Shown: in pieces, positions 3,227 through 18,296 of the stretch
Position numbering within the stretch: position 1 is the first letter of the stretch
Layout: each line of letters begins with the position of its first letter
NCBI GenBank assembly: GCA_947627515.1
Contig: CANQWI010000003.1
Coordinates: 1-46,853, forward strand
From: an uncultured Clostridia bacterium
GTDB lineage: Bacteria; Bacillota; Clostridia; Christensenellales; Borkfalkiaceae
Reading direction: 5' to 3'
DNA length: 46,853 bases
The notes under the pieces: generated by a model
The model's input: the letters and a program-made list of their open reading frames with translations, nothing else
Databases searched by the model: none
Told to the model about the DNA's origin: nothing
Program-made: the position numbers and the translations under genes

Positions 3227-3315
3227 GGCCTGAGCACCTCCCCCTTTGCCTCGGGAAAGCAAGCCTCACGCTCCTCACGCGTCTTCCCGAGCGGGTTTGC
3301 CTTGATCTTCTTCAT
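3223..3315 (-). CDS. Possible 30-codon leader peptide before spoVAC
   Basis: A short frame opens with ATG at 3315 and encodes a Lys/Glu/Arg-rich peptide beginning MKKIKANPLGK. Its TGA overlaps the spoVAC GTG start (GTGA), an arrangement typical of translational coupling. The ATG has no ribosome site and sits only about 6 bases from a sporulation-type promoter candidate, so the message may be nearly leaderless. It could equally be untranslated 5' leader. Confidence 0.3.
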   Translation of the reverse strand: MKKIKANPLGKTREEREACFPEAKGEVLRP

Positions 3316-3320
3316 GCCTA

Positions 3321-3351
3321 TACTTTGGGAAAACGTCGGGATTTTTATACA
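3321..3351 (-). promoter_or_regulatory. Candidate SigF/SigG-type promoter before spoVAC
   Basis: On the minus strand TGTATA (3346-3351) and CAAAGTA (3321-3327) are 18 bases apart and partly match the forespore consensus (TGAATA and CATACTA). spoVA genes are SigG-dependent in Bacillus subtilis, which fits, but the match is imperfect. Confidence 0.35.
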
Positions 3352-3471
3352 TGAAGAGTCTGAGGGAGGGTCACGGACGGGGGGCCTCCTATGAAGCCCG
3401 CTAAGGCAAAAGCCGACCCGTGCAAAAGTGCGCAGTTCGGGCCTTTCCCCATAAAAGCTGCGACGAGACGG

Positions 3472-3744
3472 TCAGACGTCGTCTGTGCCGTGGAGGTGCT
3501 TCCCCGCGTACTTTTTGCGGGTGGATTCGCCGCCGCGGAGATGCCGCTCGGAGAGATTTTTTTCGAGGACCCCCTTGACCCTGAGGTAGAGCTCAAAATC
3601 GACCGCAGGCAGCCGCTCCGTGACGTCCTTGTGTACAGTAGATTTGCTGGAGCCGAGAGCGTCCGCACAGGCACGGACCGTGCAGCCTGTTTTGACGATA
3701 TATTCGCCGTTTTTTACGGTCCTCTCCTCAATTTCCTTCCACAC
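3472..3744 (-). CDS. spoIIID: Sporulation transcription factor SpoIIID
   Basis: A small DNA-binding regulator of 90 residues that acts in the mother cell, switching genes on and off between the SigE and SigK stages. It matches the B. subtilis protein throughout: an N-terminal ERT-K-GEYIV helix, a helix-turn-helix ending SSKSTVHKDVTERLP (about residues 31-46), and the RHLRGGE-TRKKY C-terminal basic helix that contacts DNA. The start is GTG at 3744 with an AAAGGGGG box upstream. A SigE-like promoter and an inverted repeat lie immediately upstream. It is the first gene after the 3' end of the defence operon. Confidence 0.96.
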   Translation of the reverse strand: MWKEIEERTVKNGEYIVKTGCTVRACADALGSSKSTVHKDVTERLPAVDFELYLRVKGVLEKNLSERHLRGGESTRKKYAGKHLHGTDDV

Positions 3745-3757
3745 AAAAACCGCCCCC

Positions 3758-3789
3758 TTTCGACAAGATATTCTATACCTATGTCGAAA
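3758..3789. repeat. 8-bp inverted repeat upstream of spoIIID
   Basis: TTTCGACA and TGTCGAAA arms (3758-3765 and 3782-3789) are 16 bases apart and overlap the candidate -10 region of spoIIID. The position suits an operator, but the binding protein is unknown. Confidence 0.45.
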
Positions 3790-3805
3790 ACAGACGGATT
3801 ATGAC
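3776..3805 (-). promoter_or_regulatory. Candidate SigE promoter of spoIIID
   Basis: On the minus strand GTCATAAT (3798-3805) and CATAGGTA (3776-3783) are 14 bases apart, close to the SigE pattern (GTCATATT, 13-15 bases, CATACAnT). B. subtilis spoIIID is SigE-dependent, which supports the call. Confidence 0.45.
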
Positions 3806-3846
3806 GCGGAGAAACGACCTTGCGTTTATCGCACACTGTCATGAGT

Positions 3847-5520
3847 TTAATCGTGGTGTATCCCTTGTATAATCTTCGTGCGAAGTTTTCCTGCCGTTTC
3901 CTTTTTTGAAATAATATAAAGCATGGCACGGGCGCGAGACAGCAAGGTGTATAACATGATATTTTTTTCGCTTTGAAAATAATTTTCCCCCACATCTACG
4001 GCTATAACAATTTTGGAATCAAGTCCTTTGAAGGACTGAACTGTCGCCATGCATAGATCGTTAGAGCCGCGCTCCCCCATGAATTTTACAATATTTGTTC
4101 TATATTTCCCTTGATACCGATCGAGGACAGACTTTTCGAATGTACACGGCGAAATAATCGTTATTTCGTCCATGCAGATGCCGGCTCGCAATAGGTTCCC
4201 GATCAAACCGTCAAAAGCTTCATCGAAAAATTCTTCCGAATATTCGACAATTTCAACTTGCTCTCCGTCGATCATTGCTTTCCCCGGTTCGATCCCCGAG
4301 CTGTATTTATTGAATCTCGCGATTTGTTCGGTATTTCGACAATTTTTGGTAAGTTTAAAGTATACAGGATGATATCTCTTCAACGCATCGAGTGCTTTTT
4401 GCAGTTTTCCCCCGCCGAATAAATTTTGATTCGCATCGTAAAAGAACATCCATTTTCCGTTATACAACCCTTTTTTGAGCAGTTTCTCAAAGATTTCGAA
4501 ATACGCCGTATTCAACAGGTCCTGCCCTTCGTCCAAAACCAAGACATCAAACGGGGCGATCCTGTTTGCGGAAAGAATTTGCAGGAATTTCTCGGGCAAC
4601 ACTTTTCCGAAATAATTCGGATCGCTCATCTTGGCGAAATCGAGCGCGACATACTGTGAGATCAACCCATGAAAATGGACAATTTCGATATTCTCATCCT
4701 GCGTCAAACCGGACAAATATTTTGCAAGCAGTTTATTATAAGTCAACAGCAGCACCCGCTTGCCCTGCGCGGCACAGCGACGCGCAAACTCCATGGCCAC
4801 GAGAGTCTTTCCGCTACCCGCGGGGCCGTTGATGAGAATTTTATCGTTCTCTTCAAGAGCGTTCAAGGCCGACGCCTGTTCTTCCGTCAAGCGCACGAGT
4901 TGCTTGTCAACGGAGTTTACGATGCAGCTCAAAGACGGTACGAAATGCAGGTCGTCTCGAATCGCCGTTTTTATCTGCTCGATTTCTTCATCCTTAAGGT
5001 AAGAAACACGCGCCCTGTTTTTGGAATCCCAATAGTTATGACACCCTTCCATATAATCGTCGAATCGAATAACGGAACTGTAGTCAAACATGGTTTCGGG
5101 CCTTACCGATACGCCTCGATATTCAAATGTGATATCGGTAAATACAACGCCGTTTGCAAAGGATACTTTATTTAGCCAAGGAATTTTATCCGAAAGAGAC
5201 TTCTTCAACGCATACATTGCGCCGACCGCCTGATCGAACGGCCCTTCGTTTTTATAATCGACTTTTCCATACCTATTTTCAAATCCCCACACGCCGTTCT
5301 CACAAAAGACCCTACCCCCTTTTACCTCAAGGCACAGGATCCCGTTTTTCGTCACAACGATGAAGTCCGACTCCGTATTCGATTTTTCTTCGTGTTCCGA
5401 TAAACCGACAGAGTGAAATGCGTAGCCATCCAAACTACTTTCTTTCAGCCACTGAAAAACTTTCTTTTCCGCGTTGCTCTTATACTCGGGGCCGATCGTC
5501 GCGGGGATCAATTTTAACAC
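3847..5520 (-). CDS. NERD nuclease-like domain fused to UvrD-type helicase
   Basis: Last gene of the DISARM-related operon. The N-terminal 160 residues form a NERD (nuclease-related) domain with PD-(D/E)xK-like residues: Glu18, Asp52 and the Glu65-Val-Lys67 triad in LEVKGG. A superfamily 1 helicase follows, with Walker A GPAGSGKT near residue 231, Walker B DEGQD near 330, a TKNCRNTEQ motif and a C-terminal LLSRARAML motif VI. Such proteins can couple DNA unwinding with cutting. The start is GTG at 5520, which has GGAGG 5 bases upstream and overlaps the DrmB stop by 7 bases; a TTG 12 bases further up is less likely. By position it may supply the nuclease that DrmC provides in classical DISARM (inference). 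Confidence 0.88.
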   Translation of the reverse strand: MLKLIPATIGPEYKSNAEKKVFQWLKESSLDGYAFHSVGLSEHEEKSNTESDFIVVTKNGILCLEVKGGRVFCENGVWGFENRYGKVDYKNEGPFDQAVGAMYALKKSLSDKIPWLNKVSFANGVVFTDITFEYRGVSVRPETMFDYSSVIRFDDYMEGCHNYWDSKNRARVSYLKDEEIEQIKTAIRDDLHFVPSLSCIVNSVDKQLVRLTEEQASALNALEENDKILINGPAGSGKTLVAMEFARRCAAQGKRVLLLTYNKLLAKYLSGLTQDENIEIVHFHGLISQYVALDFAKMSDPNYFGKVLPEKFLQILSANRIAPFDVLVLDEGQDLLNTAYFEIFEKLLKKGLYNGKWMFFYDANQNLFGGGKLQKALDALKRYHPVYFKLTKNCRNTEQIARFNKYSSGIEPGKAMIDGEQVEIVEYSEEFFDEAFDGLIGNLLRAGICMDEITIISPCTFEKSVLDRYQGKYRTNIVKFMGERGSNDLCMATVQSFKGLDSKIVIAVDVGENYFQSEKNIMLYTLLSRARAMLYIISKKETAGKLRTKIIQGIHHD

Positions 5521-7289
5521 AACGGCCTCCAATTCATCACGCCAAGCATTTCATCGTCCGGTCTGCCGACGACAGCGCAACGATCCAGCAATACATTCCG
5601 AAATTCACAGGAAGTCTCGGGCAACAGCGTACACGCAAAGCAGGCCGCATAATTCAGAGACATAGATCCCTGTTCCTTAGAGCAATAACATAAGGGATCG
5701 GAACTGCACCATCTGCTCCTCTCCAACATGGATTTCAAGATGTGATCGAAGTTTATAGATTTTGCCTGTGCGGTCAACCCTCCGAGGCTACCGTCGGAAT
5801 CCGATGTCGAGGTATATATCAAGATCCCGCACATTTGTTTCTCGGAATCCTGATAGGTCGAATAAACTCTTTCCTTGATGGAAGCCGAAGAATACCCGCA
5901 CATGTTCGACAATTCGCGGATAAAAAGATGTGAAAATGTGTGTAAGAATACATACTGAGGAGAAAATCTTTCGTTGGTAAAAAACGAATCGCGCAAACGC
6001 TTTTCCATTTCCGAGTAATATTTCCCGTATTCTCTTGACCACCGATCGAGGATCTCTTGATTGAACTTGATAAATACTCCCTCTCCCTTTTGCTCGATCC
6101 CGGGGAGCCAATCCTTTTTCGTTTTTGCAAGCGGTGCAAGGTTGGGATCGCCGATGCCGAAATTTGACGTCAGTCTTGAAAACCCGACCATGGCCGTAAT
6201 TTCCGTCAGTCTGTCAACGGCGATCACTCGCTCGATAATATGTGAATACTCATCGGGTACATTTTCGTCGTGCGTAACAAAATCATCCGACTCCATGCCG
6301 CCGCCATCGGATAAAATGGCACTGTACTCATCTTCCATGATGTCCTGCATGGACCCTGTATCCTTGTTGCCGTCAAGCAGCTTGTCCAATACGCTCCGTA
6401 TATCTGTTTCATTCATATGGGGAAATTTGGACCTTGCCAATTGTACGATGAGCCTTTTATTGCTCTCGTCCAAATTCATAACCCCGATATATTTTGAAAG
6501 TTCTTTGGCGACCTTTGAACTCCAAGGCGGGATCGTCAACGCGCTGACGGTACACGGAAAGTACACGCTGCTTTCATTGCGGATCCGCATCTGCATAAAT
6601 TTTTTGTCTTCGTATCCGCGGCATTCCACGCGATCGCCCAGCCACGGCCTTTGCCCCGTACATGGGTATTTTGAAAATGCCGTTTTGGAACTGATCCCCT
6701 TCATGGAACGGCGCACGCCGCAGGAGCCGCACTCGACGAACAGGCTGTCCATATCGGTTTTATTCCCCGCATAATACATACGAAAAGAAGGATCCTCGCA
6801 ATTGCAAGTTTTTCCCTGCGCCTCATGTACCCACCAGTGATAAGGAAAATCCTCTATGTGCCCGTTTGGACAGACAAGAACAAATCTGGAAGGCAGTAAA
6901 AGGGACCTTCCTTTGCATTTTTGACTATAGCATTTAAATTTGCCGTGATCGAAATTCTTCTTCGACGCCCTCTGCAGAGTTTGACAGCGGGGACAGTACA
7001 GCCATTTCGGGAATACTTCCGCAGGAATATCCGCTTTTTCCTTTTCCCACGCAAATTCTTTAAAAGATGTCTTCGGCTTTACAAAATATCTGACGCCGAG
7101 AAGGTTTTCCAAACTCGCATTATGAATAATGAATTTGTCGTCTCGCCACCAGTCCCAATCGTCGAGTCCGCGTATCATCACGGTATGATCGATAAAATCG
7201 ACCATGGAGCCGATGCCGAAGGTCGTGATTGCCTGACTCTGCCGTACTTTCCCCACGACGGTTTTTTCGCTCTTGCCACCAAGCTTCAT
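5514..7289 (-). CDS. drmB: DrmB-like protein with DUF1998 domain
   Basis: A 591-residue homologue of DrmB, the DUF1998 partner of the DrmA helicase in DISARM. DrmA-DrmB together bind and scan incoming phage DNA in characterised systems. Visible are several zinc-binding cysteine pairs (CPRC near residue 96, a CPNGH segment, CGSCG) and the C-terminal DUF1998 domain from about residue 445: LHTFSHLFIREL, the SDGSLGGL loop, and the closing cysteine cluster (CSSDPLC, ACFACTLLPETSC). The start at 7289 has GGAGATAG upstream. The gene is 9 bases downstream of drmA and overlaps the NERD-helicase gene, so the three are translated together. Confidence 0.9.
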   Translation of the reverse strand: MKLGGKSEKTVVGKVRQSQAITTFGIGSMVDFIDHTVMIRGLDDWDWWRDDKFIIHNASLENLLGVRYFVKPKTSFKEFAWEKEKADIPAEVFPKWLYCPRCQTLQRASKKNFDHGKFKCYSQKCKGRSLLLPSRFVLVCPNGHIEDFPYHWWVHEAQGKTCNCEDPSFRMYYAGNKTDMDSLFVECGSCGVRRSMKGISSKTAFSKYPCTGQRPWLGDRVECRGYEDKKFMQMRIRNESSVYFPCTVSALTIPPWSSKVAKELSKYIGVMNLDESNKRLIVQLARSKFPHMNETDIRSVLDKLLDGNKDTGSMQDIMEDEYSAILSDGGGMESDDFVTHDENVPDEYSHIIERVIAVDRLTEITAMVGFSRLTSNFGIGDPNLAPLAKTKKDWLPGIEQKGEGVFIKFNQEILDRWSREYGKYYSEMEKRLRDSFFTNERFSPQYVFLHTFSHLFIRELSNMCGYSSASIKERVYSTYQDSEKQMCGILIYTSTSDSDGSLGGLTAQAKSINFDHILKSMLERSRWCSSDPLCYCSKEQGSMSLNYAACFACTLLPETSCEFRNVLLDRCAVVGRPDDEMLGVMNWRPLC

Positions 7290-7298
7290 GGCTATCTC

Positions 7299-10200
7299 CT
7301 AAAAATCAATAAAAATGTTGGAGCTGTTCTCCACGTTTCTTACGGAATTCAATACGGGAAACTCCCCCGGGTCCTCTTCCGCCGAAACCAATAAGGATAT
7401 ATACTGTGCGGCAAACCTGCCTTTGAGCTTATTATTATATACGAGCTGTTGCTTTGCGTGGCCACTCCAAGTGCGAATGACTTCGTCCAAATATTCCTTG
7501 GCATCATCGAAGGCATCGGGCTGAATGGCCCTGATCCTCGCAAGGAGATAGCGATAGATCCCTTGCACCGTTTGATCGTTTTCCGAAAATTGACTTGCCC
7601 CGTCGTTGTGTTCCATCTCGGGGACCAGATGGCGAACAAGGGCGATAAATACGGAGTGCAGACCCTTCTCGATGCTTCTCCGAGAAAACGGCGTCACGCT
7701 TGTCGGTTCGACATATCGATAAAAACAACTATGATATTGGTTGAATCTTTCATAATAGGACCTGTCCCTCGAGCGGAAGGCATTGTACAGGCAGAACACC
7801 AACCCCGGGTTAGTACGCCCGACGCGTCCGGTCGCTTGGATATAATCGGAATTGCTTTTCGGCTGACCGTAAACGACCATCAATCCAAGGCGATCGATAT
7901 CCACCCCGACCGAAAACATATTCGAGGATAGGATGTATTTGTAGACCTGTGAATTGTCGCCATCCTTTTCATATCCCCTATTCAGTTCATCAAGAATATT
8001 CTTGACTTCCGTTGCATTCTTTCTGCTTGTCAATTCACCCGGGCGCATTCTGCATCCGTATCGGAATTTCTCCGTTTTCGGATCCTGTAGGTCCTCCTCG
8101 CCGTCGTCCTCATCGTCTCCGAATTTCCCTATGCCCAACTTTTGAGATTCCGCAATGAATTTTCCGTTTAATAATGAGGATATGTATGCACGCATTCTCT
8201 CTTTTACAATCGTTGACGCCGTGCCAAGATCCTTGATCGCATTGAAATACCCGATAATCGTATAATACTGGTCGACAACTTTTTCGTCATACTCGGGACA
8301 AGCGGATAAGAAATAGTCGGCAACGCTCAAGACCGAATACGTTCTTATCATCAAGTCTGTCATACTGCCGCCCTGCTCGGACAGCCCCACATAAAAACGA
8401 CTCGGCCTTTCCTCTTTTGAAGCCTGCACGGCAAAGAAGGAATCCGTACTATCCAATCCTGAAGGCGGGAATTGAAAATGCTTTCTTCCGTACAGCCCCG
8501 CGATCTGATGCGCGGCATTTTTTACCGTCGCAGTCGACGCGATGATCTTCGGTTTATTCCCGTTTTCATCCAAACAAAGTCTATCGATCGCCGATTCATA
8601 CAACCCCGTCAATGTCCCGAGCGGACCTGAGATCAAATGCAATTCATCTTGAATGATCAACTTCGGCTTATTCGTTTTCATGTTGCAGCCGAAGATCCTT
8701 CCCGTCCGTTCCTCCCAAACGATGCGCGCGAACTTGTCAATCGTGCTGATAATGAGCGTCGGGGCCCTATCGTATATATCTTCGTCAATGATATAGATAG
8801 GCAGCACACCGCAGTCGTCGCACACGATCTTCATTCCGTCGTTATCGATCCTGTAGTTGGCTGCCGAAAGAGTCTTTCCGCAATAAGGGCATTTCGTGAT
8901 TTGCACGGGAGTCGACAATTCATAGAGCTGCTCTCCGGCCATCAACTTCTCCAATGCTTTTTGCGCCTCGTCCCGACGGTTGGGCGCACTATTCCCCCCG
9001 ATCCACAGGCCGATAGAGATCTCGTTGCCGCCCAAATGCTCATCCCTGCGAATTTCCTCACATGCACAGATCAAAGCGGATGCTCTCTCGAATTGCTGAA
9101 CGGTCAACAGGCGCAACGTATAACGCATAATGATCGTCGTGCCGTAAAACGGTCTGCACTTTGACAACCTCTCGTAGAAAATGAGAAAGGCAGACACTGC
9201 CAAATACGCCTCCGTTTTCCCGCCGCCCGTGGGGAACCAAAGCAGATCCACAACATCCTTATATGCACTGTCGCGATCGACAAAATCGGGAACGATCATC
9301 AAAAGGTAAAAAAGCTGGAAAGGATACCATCTCGGATCCTCTGTCTTTTCCGCAAATTCTTTTTTCGACGCGATCCCGCCGCGCATCAACGCCATGCTTT
9401 CTCTTTGGCGATACATGGCCCGATTGCACAGTACAAAACTTTTCCAAGCGATATCGCTTGAGCGAAGACACGAAACGCCTGCTCGCAACCTTTCGACACA
9501 CTTTGAGATATTTTCGAGGCAACTGTTTACCGCTCTTTCGAATCTCTTAAATTCATTCTTCTTTCCGTATTCGGTTTGCGCTTTCAACCAACTTTCATAT
9601 TTGTCGATAAATTTCGAAAGCCTTGCAAGGATCTCCTCTCTACTACCTGTTGAAAGATACCGCAAGGAAAACAGCTTCCTCTCCTCCTGTTCCACTTCGA
9701 GAGGTTTCATCTGTCTGACTTCGCTCACGGGGATGAATTCGGACTGCACGGACCTGCATTTCCCGTCTTCGATCTTAAATTGCGTCGCACACCCGTGCCC
9801 CTGTGCATAATTGCGGACATTTCGGTATTGCATCGCTAAAATTTCGTCTTCGATATCATAAATAGTTGAAAATTCGGGGTCGAATGCTACAAACTCTCCG
9901 CTCGGCGTTTGAATATCGAATCGGCATTGGAAAAGTGCATTTTCGTTTTGGACGATATCCCGAGATTGTGCATATTTCTCATTGGAAACAGAAAATGTGA
10001 CCAATCTCTCCTGTCCCGATTTTCCGATCCGCTTGGTGGCATTGATCGAGACGCCGTACTCCTTTAATTCCTCAACTTTATCGGACGTATAAAAGACTTT
10101 CTCTGTCGAAAAGTCGAATCGCATCTTCACACAGTGCTGTTTGCGAGTATATAAATGGAACTTCCTCGTTTTACCTTCAATACCGTACTGACGGATCTCT

Positions 10201-10607
10201 TCGGAATGATGATATGTGCCGAATGAAAAAGTCGCCTCGACGACATTCGTATCGGCACCGAGCATGACGCTGATACCCATCGTGGAGGGCTTGCGCAAAG
10301 CCGATCGGGCAATGACGTCATCCCCCGCGGCGTCCAGATCCGGCTCGACGGGGACCGCGCTATCCGCATCATCCTCCTCACCGACGGCAGAACTGTCTAT
10401 CAAAACCTGATTGGTTTCAAAGTCTCGTTCATCATCCGACTTGCTGTCCGCAGAGTTCAACGGCCGCGCCCATAAAATCCCGCAAACATATGTATTTAAA
10501 GGGCTCGATTCAAGGACCTCTTGCTCTTCGACGGGACCAATCAATTCTGTCTTGACCAACCCGAGAATGTAGTCCTTTGCATCATAAAACTTTTCGTATT
10601 TCCCCAT
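7299..10607 (-). CDS. drmA: DrmA-like superfamily 2 helicase
   Basis: A 1102-residue helicase matching DrmA of DISARM (YprA-related group). A non-helicase N-terminal region of about 430 residues precedes the motor: Walker A PTGGGKTEAY near residue 461, a zinc-ribbon-like pair (CPYCG near 572, CDDCG near 594) inserted between motor motifs, a DELHLISGPLG motif II near 654, STATV motif III, and QATGRVGRTNPG motif VI near 927. In DISARM this protein with DrmB blocks phage DNA at an early step. Start ATG at 10607 has GGAGG upstream and shares one base with the preceding stop (TAATG). It is the operon's largest gene. Confidence 0.9.
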   Translation of the reverse strand: MGKYEKFYDAKDYILGLVKTELIGPVEEQEVLESSPLNTYVCGILWARPLNSADSKSDDERDFETNQVLIDSSAVGEEDDADSAVPVEPDLDAAGDDVIARSALRKPSTMGISVMLGADTNVVEATFSFGTYHHSEEIRQYGIEGKTRKFHLYTRKQHCVKMRFDFSTEKVFYTSDKVEELKEYGVSINATKRIGKSGQERLVTFSVSNEKYAQSRDIVQNENALFQCRFDIQTPSGEFVAFDPEFSTIYDIEDEILAMQYRNVRNYAQGHGCATQFKIEDGKCRSVQSEFIPVSEVRQMKPLEVEQEERKLFSLRYLSTGSREEILARLSKFIDKYESWLKAQTEYGKKNEFKRFERAVNSCLENISKCVERLRAGVSCLRSSDIAWKSFVLCNRAMYRQRESMALMRGGIASKKEFAEKTEDPRWYPFQLFYLLMIVPDFVDRDSAYKDVVDLLWFPTGGGKTEAYLAVSAFLIFYERLSKCRPFYGTTIIMRYTLRLLTVQQFERASALICACEEIRRDEHLGGNEISIGLWIGGNSAPNRRDEAQKALEKLMAGEQLYELSTPVQITKCPYCGKTLSAANYRIDNDGMKIVCDDCGVLPIYIIDEDIYDRAPTLIISTIDKFARIVWEERTGRIFGCNMKTNKPKLIIQDELHLISGPLGTLTGLYESAIDRLCLDENGNKPKIIASTATVKNAAHQIAGLYGRKHFQFPPSGLDSTDSFFAVQASKEERPSRFYVGLSEQGGSMTDLMIRTYSVLSVADYFLSACPEYDEKVVDQYYTIIGYFNAIKDLGTASTIVKERMRAYISSLLNGKFIAESQKLGIGKFGDDEDDGEEDLQDPKTEKFRYGCRMRPGELTSRKNATEVKNILDELNRGYEKDGDNSQVYKYILSSNMFSVGVDIDRLGLMVVYGQPKSNSDYIQATGRVGRTNPGLVFCLYNAFRSRDRSYYERFNQYHSCFYRYVEPTSVTPFSRRSIEKGLHSVFIALVRHLVPEMEHNDGASQFSENDQTVQGIYRYLLARIRAIQPDAFDDAKEYLDEVIRTWSGHAKQQLVYNNKLKGRFAAQYISLLVSAEEDPGEFPVLNSVRNVENSSNIFIDF

Positions 10608-13153
10608 TATTCCTCCAGCGGTCGCGCATAGCCGCAGAATTCTATCCCAAACCAGAATCCGCTCTTATCATAGGGTCCGGCGATATCCCGATCTATCATA
10701 TTGTTCACAACAGTAACAACATCACTAACGAATACCTCTGTGAAGTCGGTATACCCATCCAACTTGTAATATCTTCCGTTTCCGACAAATCCGTTGGGAA
10801 GCGCGTACTTATTCATTCGTCCGATATAATGTCCGTCGTGTACGATCAAATATTCATTCCGATACTTACTGATTTTGATCGCATCGCCGATTTTGATCTT
10901 ATCTCGAATGTAAAGCTGACGCGCGTGAACATCCATTCCGGGGAGACTTTCGGACACAAATCCGATCGGATCGATATCACCGTCGATCCCCAATTCGATC
11001 CTTTTCAGATTTCCGCCGTGAACTTCGATATATCTGCCACGGTCGACCCGCAGATCTCGTTTGCCGTAACGGCCACGGCCTCTTCTGACGACCAGATCCT
11101 TTTTCGCTCGCGTCAATGCGACATAATAAACTTTGATCCCGTCGCTGTCAATATCGCCGTTTTGCTTCAACAAAACGCGATCGAATTCCCGTCCCTTGGC
11201 CTTATGGATCGTGGATATCACGATATCCGCCTCGCTCTCGGACAACAACGCTTCATCCACGCGCTTTTCATATAGCAATGCCCGTCTGAAACTTTCTATC
11301 GGGATATAATCCTCATCGTCTTTATCGGTCGTGAAGAGGATCCCCGACCAGAGACGCTTTGCGGTTTCCCCGTCGATCCCCTGTTCGGCGGCGAGTCTCA
11401 GAAAAGTCCTGCGATCGATCGTAGTTTGAATATAGCCGCACAAAATCGCAGCCAACTCCCTCCTGAAATACAGCTTGTGTGCTCCCGTAAGCAATGTGTG
11501 CTTTACGCCTGAACCGTATAGATCCTGACTTTTTCTGTATGCATCGCCGTTTTGCCATGAAAGGATCGCTATTTTGCCTCCCCCGCTGCGGCGGCATATT
11601 GCATCTTCGTCAGAGGGCTTTGGATCCTCAAATCCGTCGAGAACTTTGGCAAGCTCCTCTTTTTGGATACTGAACGGCCGATAGAGCATAGAGGTTCGGA
11701 GCGGTGTAAGTTTTTCGCCAAGATCCGTCGTATGACGCCAATCCCGCGTCAGCTCATATTCTTCAAGATCGTCAAACGAATTTTCCAGCCACTCGTAAAG
11801 TTTTGCCGCATTTAATTCGTTTTCATCGGTGATCAGATAGTCATAAATCGCTTGACACTCGTCCCCGAGCAATAGGAAGCCGCAATCGACGTGTTTGAGC
11901 AAAGATCGGACCAATTCGGCACGGACCCCGACAAGATCTTGTACCTCATCTACGATCAAATAGGATAAGGCCTCATTCAGCATTCGGACGTCATGTTCAT
12001 ATTCGTCGATAAACATCCTGATCCTTTCGTCGTAGCTGTTACAAGAAAGATCCCGTCTCGGTTCGGTCTGCATCAAGTACCATGTCGCAAACGAATCGAA
12101 CGTCATTATGGTGAATCGCTTCGCATAGGGAGAGATCTCCCCCTTGTCGATCGCCTCGGTCAGCCTGTCTCGGATAACTTTTATCGCGCTTCTCGAAAAG
12201 CACAGTACGAGCACCGAATCGGGCACAACATCCTTCTCGTTGACGTCGATATACTTTAATCTTTCGATCACCGTATGCGTTTTGCCCGTTCCGGGCCCCG
12301 CGTTTACCAAAATTCTCGAAGCGATCGAACTCTTGATGATTTTTTCAGCCGAGTCGATATGTGCGATCTTCTTTAACTGATATGTATTGCTCTGCGCGAT
12401 CGCCGTTTCGGGGAACAGCCGTTGCTGCGCTCTGCGCTTGCTCTCTGCCAAGAAGTTATGGAACTTTTCAAGATCTTTACGATCCTTAAAATGATACTTT
12501 CGCGTTACGATTCTCGTGACGAATTGCTTGCTTTCGATCTCTTCTCTTTCATGATGCCTTTTATGCGGACGGACCCACGTTACCGTACCATTTTGCAAAC
12601 ACCTCCAAAATCCGCGAACTCCCCAACGCTTAAACTCATTTACATGGACATCGGTTTTGATCTCTTCGATCACTTCCCGCTTGCGGGTCTTTTTCAGCCG
12701 CATTTTCTGCGCTCTGCTCTCCCGCGGCGTCTTGGGCAAATCGATATCAAAATCGAAATCGTCGTCCGACTCGGCTTCCTGCGGCGCATTTTCCGCAGAG
12801 ATCTGCTGCGTTCTTACGATTTTTCTGTAATTTTCAGCGGCGGAACAACTCGCAAAATGACTGCACGCCTCATTTTCGCAAGTGTTGACAAAGATCGGCT
12901 TCCCGTTTTCTAAAATTACTCCATGCGTATAATCCCCTTTGCCGTACGCGCAAGGGGTGGAATTCTCGTATATTTCTCCATGTAACGGTATAGAAAACTT
13001 GACCCTTCCGTTCGCATCCTTTTGCATCAAACTTGCGATTTCCCTCACGGCCTCGGGATCGACGACTTGCGCAAGGAATTTTTTATCGGAAAGCTTGCTT
13101 GTTCCTTCCATCACATAGAGATTGCTTGCGAATAGTATATTGCTTTCGTTCAT
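10607..13153 (-). CDS. UvrD-like superfamily 1 helicase with Cys cluster
   Basis: An 848-residue helicase. An N-terminal region of about 270 residues carries a CxxxxC-x4-C cluster near residues 91-103 (possible zinc or Fe-S site) and a charged linker. The motor follows: Walker A NAGPGTGKTHT near 287, motif II LIVDEVQD near 402, LLGDECQAIYDY, STIHKAKGREFD near 650, and VYYVALTRAKKDL near 677. The last 150 residues look like small beta-barrel domains and have no recognised family. It probably unwinds or remodels DNA for the defence complex (inference). The ATG overlaps the Hsp70 stop by 4 bases and its own stop overlaps the drmA start, so it is firmly within the operon. Confidence 0.87.
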   Translation of the reverse strand: MNESNILFASNLYVMEGTSKLSDKKFLAQVVDPEAVREIASLMQKDANGRVKFSIPLHGEIYENSTPCAYGKGDYTHGVILENGKPIFVNTCENEACSHFASCSAAENYRKIVRTQQISAENAPQEAESDDDFDFDIDLPKTPRESRAQKMRLKKTRKREVIEEIKTDVHVNEFKRWGVRGFWRCLQNGTVTWVRPHKRHHEREEIESKQFVTRIVTRKYHFKDRKDLEKFHNFLAESKRRAQQRLFPETAIAQSNTYQLKKIAHIDSAEKIIKSSIASRILVNAGPGTGKTHTVIERLKYIDVNEKDVVPDSVLVLCFSRSAIKVIRDRLTEAIDKGEISPYAKRFTIMTFDSFATWYLMQTEPRRDLSCNSYDERIRMFIDEYEHDVRMLNEALSYLIVDEVQDLVGVRAELVRSLLKHVDCGFLLLGDECQAIYDYLITDENELNAAKLYEWLENSFDDLEEYELTRDWRHTTDLGEKLTPLRTSMLYRPFSIQKEELAKVLDGFEDPKPSDEDAICRRSGGGKIAILSWQNGDAYRKSQDLYGSGVKHTLLTGAHKLYFRRELAAILCGYIQTTIDRRTFLRLAAEQGIDGETAKRLWSGILFTTDKDDEDYIPIESFRRALLYEKRVDEALLSESEADIVISTIHKAKGREFDRVLLKQNGDIDSDGIKVYYVALTRAKKDLVVRRGRGRYGKRDLRVDRGRYIEVHGGNLKRIELGIDGDIDPIGFVSESLPGMDVHARQLYIRDKIKIGDAIKISKYRNEYLIVHDGHYIGRMNKYALPNGFVGNGRYYKLDGYTDFTEVFVSDVVTVVNNMIDRDIAGPYDKSGFWFGIEFCGYARPLEE

Positions 13154-14670
13154 TGTATGATTGAAAATTGATAGTTCTCTATTTCCGAGATGTCGCAGTA
13201 ATAGCTCAACCGATTGATGTCGACTGTCTGCGGTGCAACGTTGCTCATCGTCCCGCTTGCCCGAATCGTGATCCTTGCGGTGAGACTATTGTCTATTTTG
13301 CCGCATATTTCGAAATATTCGCCCAAGAAGCCTTTTGCGGGCAGAGTGAGTCGATCCAGCACATTCGCCTTATCGTCCACAATGATAAAGTTCGCACTTT
13401 TCGCATTGTCGATCGTACCGAATTTTACGGACGTTCCCTCGAATGGAATTTTGCTTCCCCGCTTGATGATGGGATAGAAGGATCCGTCGCTGAGCGCAAT
13501 GCCGATATCTTGATTCAACTCATATCTGCAATCGAGACAGTCGATGAGAGCCGCGCCCTCTGCTACGGACCATTGGGGCCTTTCGGGATATATGATTTTG
13601 ATTTTGCGCTTACCGAAAAACTCTCCCTCCATGATTTGGCGCAACGGCAATAAATTGCTGGTGCCACCCACCATAATGATAGCATTCAGGTCCTGCCATG
13701 TTTTGTCTGCTTTATCGAGGACGACACCAATTTGGCCTACGGCGTCGCTGATGATCTGTGAAATCAGAGCTTCGAAATCCTCATATTTTAATCTGTAAAA
13801 AACCTTCTCCTCTCCGCAATAATCCAAAATGGAAATATTGGCAGGATAGTCGATATCCTCCTCTTCGGCAAATTTTATTTTTGCATCCTCACATTGAACC
13901 AATAATTTGGTTTTATCTCGGTCGGAGAGTTCATCGTATGATTTTTTATTCTTGATTTGATCGGTGCTCAAAAATTTATTATGTACAAATTCGGCGATCG
14001 TCTCATCGATCTTATCGCCCGCCACTTTCCATCCGGTCGTCGCGATCTCGTATACCTTGCCCTTTTTTACCTCCAAAAGACTGATATCGAGCGTGCCGCC
14101 GCCCCAATCAAACACCACGACCCTCGAAAATTGCTTCACGGCGTCACGGTTGCGGATATAGGCAGCCACGGATTCGCTTACGATCTTCCTGACCTTGATC
14201 CCCGCTTTTTCAAAAGCTTTGCACAACTCCTCCCTCTGTTTGGTCGTAAAATCCACAGGAACGGCAACGGTGGCCTCATCGATCTTGACGGGTCTCTTTG
14301 GATTTTTCTCGAGATATTGTTTGATCGAGGAAATAAGAAAGGAAACCACCTTGGAGGGAGTCGTTCTCAGCGAGCCGATCTCGTATTTGATCTCTTCCCC
14401 CAATGCGGTTTTGATCGATTTGAAGACCTTGTATCCTTCATCTTGCATCGTCGCGATCTGCGTTTTGACTCTTCTGCCGAACCTGACCTTCGGTTTTCCT
14501 CCTACCTCATCCTTTACGGCCACAATGGAGGGGAAGGGAACGCCGTCCTCGCCGTACAGCACCCTGAATGCCTTTTGCGTATCATGATCCAATAAAAGCC
14601 CGCCGACGGCAATATTGGTCGTCCCGAAATCTATCCCGAAATGTTCGATCTGTGTTCCGTTTGTATTCAT
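13150..14670 (-). CDS. Hsp70/DnaK-like ATPase of the defence operon
   Basis: A 506-residue Hsp70-family protein, shorter than housekeeping DnaK (about 610-640). The nucleotide-binding domain has the phosphate-1 loop GIDFGTTN (residues 13-20), the phosphate-2 loop as FDWGGGTLDISL, and the adenosine motif IMVGGTSNLLPL. The remaining hundred or so residues form a short beta domain with no helical lid, so it is unlikely to be a general chaperone. DnaJ and GrpE genes are absent; the coiled-coil gene immediately upstream is the likely partner. A role in assembling or gating the helicase complex is inference. Ribosome site GGTGAAGT; 8 bases after the preceding gene. Confidence 0.88.
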   Translation of the reverse strand: MNTNGTQIEHFGIDFGTTNIAVGGLLLDHDTQKAFRVLYGEDGVPFPSIVAVKDEVGGKPKVRFGRRVKTQIATMQDEGYKVFKSIKTALGEEIKYEIGSLRTTPSKVVSFLISSIKQYLEKNPKRPVKIDEATVAVPVDFTTKQREELCKAFEKAGIKVRKIVSESVAAYIRNRDAVKQFSRVVVFDWGGGTLDISLLEVKKGKVYEIATTGWKVAGDKIDETIAEFVHNKFLSTDQIKNKKSYDELSDRDKTKLLVQCEDAKIKFAEEEDIDYPANISILDYCGEEKVFYRLKYEDFEALISQIISDAVGQIGVVLDKADKTWQDLNAIIMVGGTSNLLPLRQIMEGEFFGKRKIKIIYPERPQWSVAEGAALIDCLDCRYELNQDIGIALSDGSFYPIIKRGSKIPFEGTSVKFGTIDNAKSANFIIVDDKANVLDRLTLPAKGFLGEYFEICGKIDNSLTARITIRASGTMSNVAPQTVDINRLSYYCDISEIENYQFSIIQ

Positions 14671-14678
14671 ACTTCACC

Positions 14679-15809
14679 TTACAAAGCGATCCCGTTTTTC
14701 TTTAATACTCTGAAAACATCTTCCAAAATGCCCAACAAGATCTCATAGTATCCCAAATCGGGCTTTTTCTCTTTGATCTCCGTATATTTTTCGTATTCGG
14801 AACTCAGCCGCTTGCGAATGTTGCCTTTCAACGCATCGATCTCCGTTTGCCCTGCTTGTCCGAAGGCCGATTCGACATTGTTCAGCTTTGCTTGATTGTG
14901 CTCGAGCGCGTTTTGCACTTCTCTGAGTTCTCCTGTCAGCTTAGAGACCTTGCGCTCAAGGTCGCTCTCTTTTTCTATCAGATCGCCGTTTTGCGCTCTC
15001 AATTTTTCGACCTCGGAAATCAAATTCGCATTTGTGTTTTTTAAATCCGACTTTTCCGAATTCAAGCTGCGGATCTCTTCATTTTTGGATTTGTTCTCGG
15101 CCTGTATCGCCGTAACCTTGCTTTCAAGTAATTTTAATAATTCGCCTAAATCAAGCGCACGCGCGGCCTTTTCGCTCGGTTTTGCAACCTTGTGGCCCCC
15201 CTCATCGGTTTTTTGCACCTTTTTTTCAGCAGATCCTCCGCCGTTCCACACAAAATTTTTGCCGTTGTTGCGACAAAAGATTTCCGTCGCTTGCCCGAAT
15301 TCGCTATCGTTGAGATACCCCGCGCATGATACTAAAAATCTCGTGTAGAGATTGATCTCAAGGTCTCCCCAGTCCTCTAACTTCGCAAACAAATACGAAT
15401 CGCTTCCGTATTTCATCGCACGGTGAAACCCTTCATAAAGAGACTTATTTTCTAATTTTTTTGGCAGATTTGTTTGCACGAAACGCATCAATAAGGAGCT
15501 TGCCTGAGGACGGTTCCCCGCTTTTTCCAATGCAACCGCCGCGGCGGCAATATGTCCTGCTTTTACGGAATTCTCCACATCGATGGTCTTTACGATCCTT
15601 TCAAGCGTATCTTCCGCCGCAGCAACTCGACCGTCGGTAAAAAAAAGATAGACCACGTCGGAATCGAGCTTTAACAATACCGTATCCAGCCGAGCAATAT
15701 CGTCATCGGTAGAATACTGCCCGTTTGCAAGGATCTCAACGGCCTCTTTGACTCCCTTCTGAGATAATTTTTTTCTTTCGGTATATTGCGTCAAATCTTC
15801 CCAAATCAT
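14679..15809 (-). CDS. Coiled-coil protein, first gene of the DISARM-related operon
   Basis: Family not recognised. Residues 1-190 are helical, with alternating short helices reminiscent of TPR-like repeats. A charged linker leads to a long heptad coiled coil (about 218-320), then a compact C-terminal helical segment (325-376) with a Leu/Tyr pattern ending VLKKNGIAL. The layout resembles GrpE-style nucleotide-exchange factors (a coiled coil beside an Hsp70), so a co-chaperone or sensor role for the adjacent Hsp70 is proposed; this is inference from context. The start has a strong GAGGTGAT ribosome site and lies about 15 bases downstream of the predicted transcription start. It is the promoter-proximal gene and is expected to be the most expressed. 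Confidence 0.8.
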   Translation of the reverse strand: MIWEDLTQYTERKKLSQKGVKEAVEILANGQYSTDDDIARLDTVLLKLDSDVVYLFFTDGRVAAAEDTLERIVKTIDVENSVKAGHIAAAAVALEKAGNRPQASSLLMRFVQTNLPKKLENKSLYEGFHRAMKYGSDSYLFAKLEDWGDLEINLYTRFLVSCAGYLNDSEFGQATEIFCRNNGKNFVWNGGGSAEKKVQKTDEGGHKVAKPSEKAARALDLGELLKLLESKVTAIQAENKSKNEEIRSLNSEKSDLKNTNANLISEVEKLRAQNGDLIEKESDLERKVSKLTGELREVQNALEHNQAKLNNVESAFGQAGQTEIDALKGNIRKRLSSEYEKYTEIKEKKPDLGYYEILLGILEDVFRVLKKNGIAL

Positions 15810-15829
15810 ATAATCACCTCTTTAGCTGT

Positions 15830-15858
15830 ATTATAACAAAATCCCAAATAAAAAGCAA
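15830..15858 (-). promoter_or_regulatory. SigA-type promoter of the DISARM-related operon
   Basis: On the minus strand TTGCTT (15853-15858) and TATAAT (15830-15835) are separated by 17 bases, about 21 bases before the first start codon. It appears to be the only promoter for the six defence genes. Confidence 0.75.
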
Positions 15859-15891
15859 CCTCAACGGGAGAAATATATCAGAAATGTACGA

Positions 15892-15935
15892 CAAATAAAA
15901 ACCCGCGGAGGATAATTCGTCAAATCCTGCCGCGG
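15892..15935 (-). terminator. Intrinsic terminator upstream of the defence operon
   Basis: On the minus strand CCGCGGCAGGAT pairs with ATCCTCCGCGG around a short loop and is followed by GTTTTTATTT. It ends the DUF488 transcription unit and insulates the defence promoter. The stretch 15936-16063 between it and the DUF488 remnant holds nothing recognised. Confidence 0.8.
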
Positions 15936-16063
15936 AAATTGGTTTGGGTCGTGAAAGCAGACAATATTGTGCTTTAAACAAAAGATAAGCAAGACGGTGA
16001 GTCAGGGGAGGCGGACGGGAGAGGTGTTGGGAAAGACGGAGGAGGAGAAGAGGGCGGCGAGGC

Positions 16064-16182
16064 GGCGAGCCGGGATGAATTGTTCAGACGAATATCCAAA
16101 ACGACTTGACGCCGTGCTCTCTCAAAAGGGTAAAAATTCGCTCTGCGGACTTCTGTGTAAAGCCGATCGTGTACAGCCCCAT
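16064..16182 (-). pseudogene. Second DUF488 gene, frameshifted and truncated
   Basis: Directly after the stop of the intact DUF488 gene an ATG at 16182 with a perfect AGGAGG site opens a DUF488 N-terminus: MGLYTIGFTQKSAE, then LLREHGVK. The frame hits TGA about 33 codons in. One frame over, near 16104, the family sequence resumes as VLDIRLNNSSRLA, the usual motif of this family. A single-base loss therefore explains the break. Beyond 16064 the resemblance stops and only a Pro/Ser-rich frame runs on to 15974, so the 3' part is missing too. A sequencing error could explain the shift but not the missing C-terminus. Confidence 0.75.
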
Positions 16183-16779
16183 CTATTCCTCCTCGATATG
16201 GTAGCCGATCTCGGCGTTTCTCCTTCGATAGGCCTCCTCGAGATATTCCCGATCCGTGCGGGTGTCGAAGAGCGACAGCTGTGCGCGGTGCGGGAAATAA
16301 GTCTCGAGAAGCCGCTCCTCGATGTCCTCCTGCGTCTCGAGCCTGTCCCTTTCGAGATGCAGAACGCGGTAGCCGTGCTCCTTGAAGCTGCGGCCGAGGA
16401 GAATACAGCGGTGGCAATTGAAGGGGTCCTTTTCCGCGCACATGAGAGCAAAGCGGTACCCCATCGCATAGCCTGCGTCGACCTTGCGGATGCCGTCCGA
16501 AAAGACGGGCGTCGCGGCGAATTTTTCAAAATCAAGATAGCCGTTCGGATAGAGAGAAGCGTCCTCTTGTCTCGCGCCGAACTCCGTGCGGTAATTGCGA
16601 TAGAGAATACCGTTTTCCCCGAGCAGCGGCTTGATATTTTCTGCATTATAATCGGTATAATAGCCCGATTTCGGAGTGGAGCGGACGTCGATCACGCAGG
16701 AGATCCCATGCTCCTTCAGGACGCACAGCATTTCCTCGGGTGTAAAGGACGTATAGCCCACCGTAAAGATCTCGTTCAT
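16183..16779 (-). CDS. DUF488 family protein
   Basis: A 198-residue DUF488 protein, normal length. The family landmarks are present: N-terminal VGYTSFTPEEML, IDVRSTPKSGY (about residues 31-41), the FGARQ segment, and CAEKDPFNCHR with the closing HLE motif. DUF488 proteins are of unknown biochemistry and recur beside nucleic-acid-processing and conflict genes. The start overlaps the stop of the dual-OB gene by 4 bases, so the two are coupled, and a broken second DUF488 copy follows without a gap. The arrangement suggests the proteins work together, perhaps in RNA or DNA sensing (inference). Confidence 0.9.
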   Translation of the reverse strand: MNEIFTVGYTSFTPEEMLCVLKEHGISCVIDVRSTPKSGYYTDYNAENIKPLLGENGILYRNYRTEFGARQEDASLYPNGYLDFEKFAATPVFSDGIRKVDAGYAMGYRFALMCAEKDPFNCHRCILLGRSFKEHGYRVLHLERDRLETQEDIEERLLETYFPHRAQLSLFDTRTDREYLEEAYRRRNAEIGYHIEEE

Positions 16780-18296
16780 TCTCCCTCCAACAGGCCGAGC
16801 TTCATCAGCCTTGCGCGGATGCCGCCGACGCTCCGCTTGTGCCGCTCTGCGATTTTTTCAAGGGAGAGCCTACTCATAAACTCCCTCACGAGCCTCCCCT
16901 CCTCATCGGGCGTCCACGGCTTGCCTGCAAGCTCTCCCCTATAATTCGAGGCCCGCGTGACGGGCGGGATCCGAACGACGTCGGGACCAAGAGACGGGGC
17001 TGCGGGCTCGGACTCCGCGCTTTTCTCTCCCGCCTGCTCCGACGGGGGCTCTGCGCTCGTCGCTGCGGCAAGGGCGGCAGCGTACCTTTTTGCGGTCTCC
17101 TCGTCCAAAAGAGTTGCGATCGCCTCGATGTTGTCAAGCAAAAACGCCTGCGCCCGCTGACCGTACAGAACGATCGGGTAGGTGACGCCGTTTGGAGAAT
17201 GACGGATCTCATAGGAAATGTCATAGGTGGTGCCCAACTCGTCGGGAAGACGCTTTCCGCTCTCCCGTGAGAGAAGGCCGAAGCTCTCAAAGAGCTCGGC
17301 GATCATCAGCGAGGTGACCTTTTTCCCATACGGCTCCCTGACAGCGTTGATGCGCTCGGCAAGGGCTGAGGCCGTGAGCCTCTGCTGCGTCGTATTGATC
17401 TCCCCGACGCGGGAGCGGAGGATATAGACGGCGCGGGGGTCCACAGCCGACTCTGTGGGGCCGTAGAGGCGTCTTGCGCAGTAGCCGAACATGTCCGCAT
17501 ACGCCTCGGGCATGTCGAGCTCCTCCCCCGTCTCGGGGTGCTTTTTTTCGGCAAGCAGGGAGAGGAAGCGTCTTGCCTTGGGAAGGTCAATTTCCCTCTT
17601 GGGAGGAAGGACGAACGGTCGCCTCTCCGTACGGCCGCCGAGAGTCCTGTCCGCACGCGCGGAGTCCTCTGCCCTCAACGGTAAAAGCTTATCGATGAAT
17701 TTATAAAAATTCCCATTGGAATAGGGCAGCCCGGGGAGACTTACGACGAGAAGGGCGGCCTCAAGCTCTGTCTCGGCAAGCTCGTCCCTGCGATAGACGG
17801 GATCTGTCACGGAGATCTCCGAATACGTCCTTCCGCGGTAGGTGAAGGAGCTGCGGTAGTGCATCCTGTTCTCCTCGTCCCGATAATACCCAAGGCGCAG
17901 GTTCTCTGCCTTGATGAGGACAAGCGAGCCGCCGACCCTTGCGATCTCCTCCTCGTTGAGAAAGGAAAAGGGGTTGCCGAAAAGATATTTCTCCCTGCTC
18001 AGATACTCCCCCGAGAGGAGCTCGGAGAGGGCAAGACGGCCCCTTCTCACAGGCGGGACGGTAAGGTCCATGAGAAAATTCTCCCTCTGGCAACCGTACG
18101 GGACGGGACGGAGGACCTCGACCTCAAGTATCTCGAGATAGTCAAAGCCGTCAAAGAGGCTCTTTGGGAGCTCGCTCCTTGCGGGGTCCTCGGACGCGAC
18201 GAGCCGTATCCATTCCTTCGTCTCCGTGTCAAAGCCCGCGACGCAGTACCCGCCGTTCTTATAGGATTTTGTCATGAGTACAAAGCTTTTTTTCAT
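16776..18296 (-). CDS. Dual OB-fold-like protein with C-terminal Myb/SANT-like domain
   Basis: A 506-residue protein that I associate with the dual OB-domain (DuOB) family by its start, MKKSFVLMTKSYKNGGYCVAG, and beta-rich first 150 residues. The middle (about 220-400) is helical and unassigned. A low-complexity Ala/Glu/Pro/Ser linker (about 405-450) leads to a short helix-turn-helix-like module (KPWTPDEEGRLVREF, then RSVGGIRARLMKLGLL) of the kind that binds nucleic acid. DuOB proteins have been linked computationally to DUF488 in putative immunity loci; here the two genes overlap. It starts 24 bases after the nucleotidase-kinase gene and is probably in the same transcript. Confidence 0.75.
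   Translation of the reverse strand: MKKSFVLMTKSYKNGGYCVAGFDTETKEWIRLVASEDPARSELPKSLFDGFDYLEILEVEVLRPVPYGCQRENFLMDLTVPPVRRGRLALSELLSGEYLSREKYLFGNPFSFLNEEEIARVGGSLVLIKAENLRLGYYRDEENRMHYRSSFTYRGRTYSEISVTDPVYRRDELAETELEAALLVVSLPGLPYSNGNFYKFIDKLLPLRAEDSARADRTLGGRTERRPFVLPPKREIDLPKARRFLSLLAEKKHPETGEELDMPEAYADMFGYCARRLYGPTESAVDPRAVYILRSRVGEINTTQQRLTASALAERINAVREPYGKKVTSLMIAELFESFGLLSRESGKRLPDELGTTYDISYEIRHSPNGVTYPIVLYGQRAQAFLLDNIEAIATLLDEETAKRYAAALAAATSAEPPSEQAGEKSAESEPAAPSLGPDVVRIPPVTRASNYRGELAGKPWTPDEEGRLVREFMSRLSLEKIAERHKRSVGGIRARLMKLGLLEGE

Follow-up and report, generated by a model that had tools for sequence, protein, structure and literature searches.

A DISARM-like operon with an Hsp70 gene as a candidate defence system of an uncultured Clostridia bacterium

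Does an operon that joins the DISARM pair DrmA and DrmB to an Hsp70-like ATPase belong to DISARM, or does it stand for a different class of defence system? The question is raised by contig CANQWI010000003.1 of an uncultured Clostridia bacterium (assembly GCA_947627515.1), whose whole stretch of 46,853 nucleotides, not the operon alone, is called the window here. DISARM of classes 1 and 2 consists of drmA, drmB and drmC together with a methylase and either drmD or drmE. A sequence-only reading of the window had proposed a DISARM-related six-gene operon at 3847..15858. Its lower end at 3847 holds, but the genes end at 15809 and not at 15858; six intact open reading frames (ORFs) span 15809 to 3847 on the minus strand and are listed below in the order of transcription. 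Our results make it fairly probable that this operon represents a new class of DISARM-like defence against phages or mobile DNA.

14679..15809, minus strand: coiled-coil (CC) protein, 376 amino acids (aa); ORF with position-matched ORFs in the family
13150..14670, minus strand: Hsp70-like ATPase, 506 aa; HSP70 profile, 1.6e-36
10607..13153, minus strand: UvrD-like SF1 helicase, 848 aa; PF00580, 1.9e-22
7299..10607, minus strand: DrmA helicase, 1102 aa; NF038325, 891 bits; PADLOC DrmA, 2e-206
5514..7289, minus strand: DrmB, a DUF1998/MZB protein, 591 aa; NF038324, 486 bits
3847..5532, minus strand: NERD nuclease domain with SF1 helicase, 561 aa, TTG start; PF08378, 3.1e-12

Successive genes are separated by an 8 bp gap, a 4 bp overlap, a 1 bp overlap, a 9 bp gap and a 19 bp overlap, in agreement with the claim that all of them overlap or lie fewer than 10 bases apart. 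A single promoter ahead of the operon had also been claimed and is not borne out. Within 15750-16250 the minus strand has a single promoter-like site, which falls in the first gene (15794-15767), and both strands of 3250-16200 together hold 24 such sites, compared with 16.2 (standard deviation 3.6) in shuffled sequences.

Profile searches of the six proteins agree with the identities first proposed for the CC, Hsp70, UvrD-like and NERD proteins, and the relationship to DISARM is upheld by model scores, by the split DrmA/DrmB pair and by matches to the solved DrmA and DrmB. DrmA scores 891.1 bits against NF038325, slightly short of the curated cut-off of 950, and is also matched by the PADLOC DrmA model. 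It matches the solved Serratia DrmA chain (7s9v_A) at 430.8 bits with phmmer, and a four-sequence DrmA profile reaches 771.3 bits over residues 137 to 1305 of that chain. The motifs GGGKTEA (at 461) and DELH (at 654) are present. Residues 51-106 are acidic (30% D/E), stand at the position of the trigger loop (176-232 in Serratia DrmA) and directly precede a PS-x-x-G segment common to Serratia DrmA. DrmB passes the DrmB_fam model NF038324 (486 bits, cut-off 240), carries an MZB match (PF09369, 3.2e-8) and aligns with Serratia 7s9v_B at 267.9 bits over residues 8-574. The two genes are adjacent as proposed, 9 bp apart, so that the helicase and the OB-CON-DUF1998 protein are encoded separately; in the part of PMC12458937 covered here, this arrangement is described as consistent only in the DISARM branch.

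The remaining DISARM components are another matter. Among the matches listed for the six operon proteins with Pfam, PADLOC and NCBIfam, none was to DrmC, a DNA methylase (DrmMI/DrmMII), DrmD or DrmE, the DrmD/DrmE result for the UvrD protein referring to the best 25 of 43 PADLOC families; nor was a methylase found in the ten other window proteins by Pfam alone. As a control for the DrmC test, proteins adjoining DrmB in two other loci (L054 and L040) do match DrmC. The sequence-only reading had recognised none of these four components either. Because the operon lacks them and its DrmA falls under the curated cut-off, it is not DISARM in the strict sense.

We then asked whether the gene order recurs, which the sequence-only reading had set beforehand as its refuting test. 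The 117 entries compared, the window included, comprise genome contigs (scanned with DrmA alignment A1, the best 80 of 586 relatives being used), viral contigs (16 loci) and 20 fetched stretches. Eighteen of these stretches come from a DrmB survey of the phylum (match in 21 of 398 genomes); the other two were taken from relatives surveyed with DrmA (match in 5 of 101 genomes). Close relatives at 82-100% identity occur in 2 of the 101 genomes, the bacterium's own and G448. Hsp70, UvrD and DrmA follow each other in 13 of the 117 entries, corresponding to 12 distinct loci: the window, L043 (the same contig as L066), L052, L059, L060, L061, L062, L064, L067, L068, L070 and L139. DrmB comes next in all of them except L060, whose contig stops after DrmA. 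Among the sources, Anaerosalibacter bizertensis (L064) and Eubacterium coprostanoligenes ATCC 51222 (L068) are cultured isolates, L060 and L067 are metagenome-assembled genomes (MAGs) of Synergistota and Gastranaerophilales, and L139 is a viral contig. Since the order is kept in other genera despite low identity (34-44% for DrmA and 14-20% for CC, relative to the window), it is more than chance. A further locus of the same genus, L053, has UvrD, DrmA, DrmB and NERD at 76-84% identity on a contig that ends in UvrD.

The proposed six-gene set stands in part. NERD follows DrmB in 7 of the 11 resolved loci (the window, L053, L043, L067, L068, L070 and L139) and does not in L059, L062, L064 and L052, while L060 and L061 are cut. 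The order of the other five genes recurs, and because NERD is optional the conserved unit is CC-Hsp70-UvrD-DrmA-DrmB. Where present, the NERD-helicase, which combines PF08378 with an SF1 helicase and matches PADLOC RTasNERD-Hel at 1.7e-41, has invariant residues E54, D56, E69, K71, K242, D334 and E335 in 8 of 8 sequences.

We built a quick DrmA tree of 111 rows, leaving out L066 and DrmA frames shorter than 950 aa, and a careful tree of 35 of these rows. 'UvrD' labels at or below 300 bits were not used for grouping, because the iterated UvrD profile drew in generic SF1 helicases. In both trees the same 14 rows form one DrmA clade (SH-aLRT 100 in the first, 100/99 in the second), made up of 11 Hsp70-type loci, L053, L063 (whose contig starts inside DrmA) and L086. 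The last of these groups with L067 and L068 at 100/100 in the 35-row tree.

L086 is nested in the Hsp70-type clade and has different genes at the front. At L086:3099-14875, Zorya-like genes stand in line with UvrD, DrmA and DrmB, a few bases apart. The place of CC and Hsp70, upstream of UvrD, is taken by three genes. One encodes a MotA/ExbB protein that is recognised by ZorA models (best 5.7e-25), another an OmpA/MotB-like protein, and another an EH-signature protein, whose Pfam match (E 5e-5) does not reach the cut-off of its model. Another arrangement, with an ORF of 1542-1855 aa directly before UvrD, characterises 23 entries (22 Actinobacterial). The two of these large ORFs that were tested (L072:3244-8082 and L069:2051-7558) match sacsin weakly close to their start and have an SF2 helicase at their end, and PADLOC TmtA models also match the one of L072. 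The tree group 'GHKL-UvrD' is defined by the length of the unlabelled ORF alone, and in L082 and L084 this ORF lies downstream. In L134:1523-7533 and in the viral contig L150:2262-7621, UvrD-DrmA-DrmB is divergent from both an SNF2/ResIII helicase gene and a large gene lacking a Pfam match; according to its annotation, plasmid locus L234 is arranged likewise, and NERD follows DrmB in L134 and L234. As the Zorya-like, large-ORF and divergent-helicase arrangements share the core, the front slot appears exchangeable around UvrD-DrmA-DrmB.

The UvrD-like protein has a Walker A motif at 286, DEVQD at 402 and an N-terminal cluster of four cysteines (C68, C92, C97 and C103). All 12 UvrDs from Hsp70-type rows of the clade have the Cys cluster; Hsp70 is seen at 11 of these loci, and the contig of L053 is cut before Hsp70. 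None of the five other aligned UvrDs (L086, L134, L118, L125 and L052) has the cluster. Cluster and Hsp70 module go together in 15 of the 16 UvrDs whose Hsp70 status was seen. Since the cluster is lost in L086 along with CC and Hsp70, these results suggest that the Cys-cluster domain may be the docking site of the CC-Hsp70 module. Gene set, order, motifs, clade and Cys-cluster link can all be read from the sequences, in which the catalytic motifs are intact.

The Hsp70 belongs to its family by a nucleotide-binding domain with the ATPase residues and a beta substrate-binding domain, and its model has no helical lid. The ATPase residues are invariant across class members. Its top structural matches include Ssz1, which is an Hsp70 from the ribosome-associated Hsp70/Hsp40 complex. 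One class member, L067:1830-4175 (781 aa), is extended at the N-terminus by what reads as TPR repeats.

ORFs of 352-452 aa that align with CC lie directly before Hsp70 in each Hsp70-type locus; they were assigned by position and alignment A6, automatic family building having recovered only L061 (31 bits). Profile searches with CC gave weak coiled-coil matches, and the best 60 of its 144 PDB profile matches map on or around the coiled-coil part. An AF2 model from 12 family members (mean pLDDT 72.5, lower in the N-terminal part) shows a helical TPR-like region (1-182), a linker, a 126-residue helix (221-346) and a short C-terminal helix (352-371). The Foldseek search is headed by TPR proteins, with a best E of 0.015 and no row reaching 0.001; TPR and other repeat proteins, with E values no better than 0.015, make up most of the best 50 of 1113 rows. 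We also considered CC as a GrpE. Its C-terminal part aligned with 19 GrpEs at an hhalign probability of 28.8% (E 6e-4), compared with 0-0.2% for five column shuffles, 0.8% for column reversal and 9.7% for full-length CC. GrpE has a coiled coil, a helix bundle and a beta wing, and the CC model is devoid of beta strands; the likeness to GrpE is kept as a hint only. In L064 (2877-4799) and L066 (1825-4875), large proteins lacking a Pfam match lie directly before CC and have a YHYYDD-type stretch in common, by eye. They may be a further component, present in some members of the class.

The surroundings of these loci were also compared. An LlaJI nuclease adjoins L070 and AbiEii adjoins L139. The 53 neighbour proteins of ten Hsp70-type loci, a scan that left out several short or contig-edge ORFs and was tallied on the best 25 of 81 Pfam and the best 25 of 175 PADLOC families, include three C5 methylases, two Vsr proteins and one HpaII nuclease. 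With tallies of this depth, DrmC or another nuclease may still adjoin single loci. By motif, two of the C5 methylases are placed at L068 (opposite strand) and one at L139 (directly downstream, same strand). DrmA relatives, each below 60% identity, occur in 85 plasmid records and one phage record; no Hsp70 annotation was found in the three plasmid regions read of 30 listed. L234, located on a conjugative Rhizobium plasmid, is a UvrD-DrmA-DrmB-NERD set and has an integrase gene in its vicinity. Its annotation names the four genes generically, so that such loci, judging by this one plasmid, may be missed by present scans.

In the window, GC content in 2 kb windows is 45-49% over the operon, 56-59% in the right flank and 49-52% in the left. 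Two genes for DUF488 and dual-OB (DuOB) proteins (16183-18296, 4 bp overlap) lie between the operon and NT5C. Nine of 15 strong same-genus NT5C places were read; the stretches of L218 and L225 run to the end of their contigs, which in L218 comes after some 2.8 kb. Beside NT5C, none of these 9 stretches matches the operon, DUF488 or DuOB, and the NT5C-DHH adjacency is kept. The occurrence of the operon is thus patchy. Farther away, at 30214-31743 and 39130-40818, long minus-strand ORFs encode proteins of the SNase-like and Endonuclease I families.

How might the operon act? From the protein families we infer a complex, its substrate, its gating and a role in defence; most likely, the operon would act as DISARM does, with a chaperone module added at its front. 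According to the portion of PMC9142583 covered here, DISARM DrmAB is autoinhibited by its trigger loop and needs its own ATPase, binds single-stranded DNA and DNA with 5' overhangs, and has been proposed to be repressed by methylation, and DrmC was apparently non-essential in the DISARM studied. The sequence-only reading's inference that an operon lacking a methylase must tell self from non-self differently is thus to be taken with reserve, the more so as two related loci, L068 and L139, have C5 methylases beside them. DrmA and DrmB of the operon would likewise form a complex that the acidic trigger loop holds off; on invading DNA, single-stranded 5' tails would be its loading sites. On the DrmAB-bound DNA, the UvrD-like helicase may be a second motor. 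The NERD domain would cut this DNA in place of DrmC, the NERD helicase-nuclease and UvrD processing it. The least certain steps concern the front. The lidless Hsp70 and its TPR-like/coiled-coil partner might dock on the four-Cys N-terminal domain of UvrD as an ATP-driven module, holding the motor-nuclease inactive or licensing its assembly, with release once phage-made or misfolded protein occupies Hsp70. A bolder version, which we regard as tentative and rather doubtful, is a chaperone-guarded immune machine: Hsp70 and the CC co-chaperone would sense phage-made or misfolded proteins and switch on DrmAB-UvrD-NERD, and Hsp70, the Zorya-like motor of L086 and the Actinobacterial GHKL (Hsp90-like fold)-helicase would be interchangeable triggers on the UvrD-DrmA-DrmB core.

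Several observations weigh against a chaperone-gated defence class. L052 has CC, Hsp70, UvrD, DrmA and DrmB, but neither tree places it in the clade, and it sits on a long branch; it has Hsp70 yet a UvrD lacking the Cys cluster, so that the link between the two is not strict. The swap in L086 is a single locus in one MAG. The GrpE likeness of CC is weak at 28.8%, and Hsp70 as a gate rather than an assembly factor is the least certain point. In a sample of the class (DrmB in 8 of 391 genomes), none of the seven DrmB neighbourhoods fetched is of the Hsp70 type, no match to the window Hsp70, UvrD or CC being found in any of them, and 2 of the 18 phylum-sample neighbourhoods, the window apart, are of this type. 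The Hsp70-type class is thus real but uncommon.

Alternatively, Hsp70 and CC could be a dedicated chaperone that folds or assembles the large helicases of a DISARM-type defence and neither senses nor gates. We consider this conceivable though unlikely. The substrate-binding beta domain, the match to Ssz1 and the abutting or overlapping of the CC-Hsp70 genes with the helicase genes all fit it, but 104 of the 117 DrmA entries have no Hsp70 seen in the operon (some of these contigs being cut), and a pure folding helper would not account for L086, because a Zorya-like set replaces CC and Hsp70 there. The patchy occurrence and the absence beside NT5C in all nine same-genus stretches also bear on whether this is defence at all. 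Some members of the YprA/MrfA family are repair helicases, according to the portion of PMC12458937 covered, and the operon could serve housekeeping DNA repair or recombination. This appears quite improbable given that distribution, the copy on viral contig L139, the restriction-modification and Abi neighbours, the related set near an integrase on the Rhizobium plasmid, and the separate helicase and DUF1998 genes. Finally, UvrD-DrmA-DrmB(-NERD) and a CC-Hsp70 unit could be two independent neighbours, as UvrD-DrmA-DrmB is found in other clades in the absence of Hsp70, and L052 pairs a divergent CC-Hsp70 with a UvrD lacking the cluster. The identical order at every Hsp70-type locus and the association of cluster and Hsp70 make this very improbable. 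In fact, of 14 Hsp70 matches only the one in L107 falls outside a DrmA operon. That gene (L107:17820-19631) belongs to the Hsp70 family and is found at another DrmA locus, outside its operon and on the other strand.

If DISARM-like defence with a chaperone front module is the right reading, the DISARM superfamily would gain a distinct class in which an active-looking Hsp70 stands at the place expected for methylase and PLD nuclease genes, with L086 as a natural swap of a Zorya-like set for Hsp70. This placement and this swap would make two questions testable: how DrmAB systems lacking their own methylase spare self DNA, and whether a protein-quality chaperone can be a bacterial infection sensor.

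How does the operon compare with known systems? The sequence-only reading could not place the exact gene set, and we found no description of Hsp70 with DrmAB, or of a system of the six families, in the literature searched, which left out most subscription papers. Hsp70 has 0 occurrences in the main text of PMC12458937, and Hsp70 with DrmAB is not described in the portions of PMC11090510, PMC9142583 and PMC10952713 covered. One preprint mentions uncharacterised DISARM-like classes. ARMADA, BRIGADE and TALON are likewise defence systems with a YprA-type helicase, and TALON shares the NERD nuclease (PMC12458937); however, the operon has no match to a BrxHII-like helicase or PglX-like methylase, and none to the TBP or TPR-CSD (cold-shock) proteins of TALON among its six proteins. 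The sixth gene matches PADLOC models of DRT-associated NERD-helicase, Nhi and AbiO, but no reverse transcriptase match is present and the operon is a different one. In CoCoNuT type III, too, coiled coils and an Hsp70-like protein are encoded within a defence operon, the Hsp70-like proteins being described as poor ATPases at best (portion of PMC11090510 covered); in contrast, the ATPase residues are invariant here, the partners are DrmAB and UvrD, and the matches listed for the six proteins include no McrB GTPase or McrC. Zorya is approached by the front slot of L086, and the window has none of these three genes. DISARM shares the adjacent, separately encoded DrmA and DrmB, the match to Serratia DrmAB (7s9v) and the acidic stretch at the trigger-loop position, and the operon differs from it in having UvrD, Hsp70, CC and NERD in the absence of DrmC, methylase, DrmD and DrmE among its six proteins.

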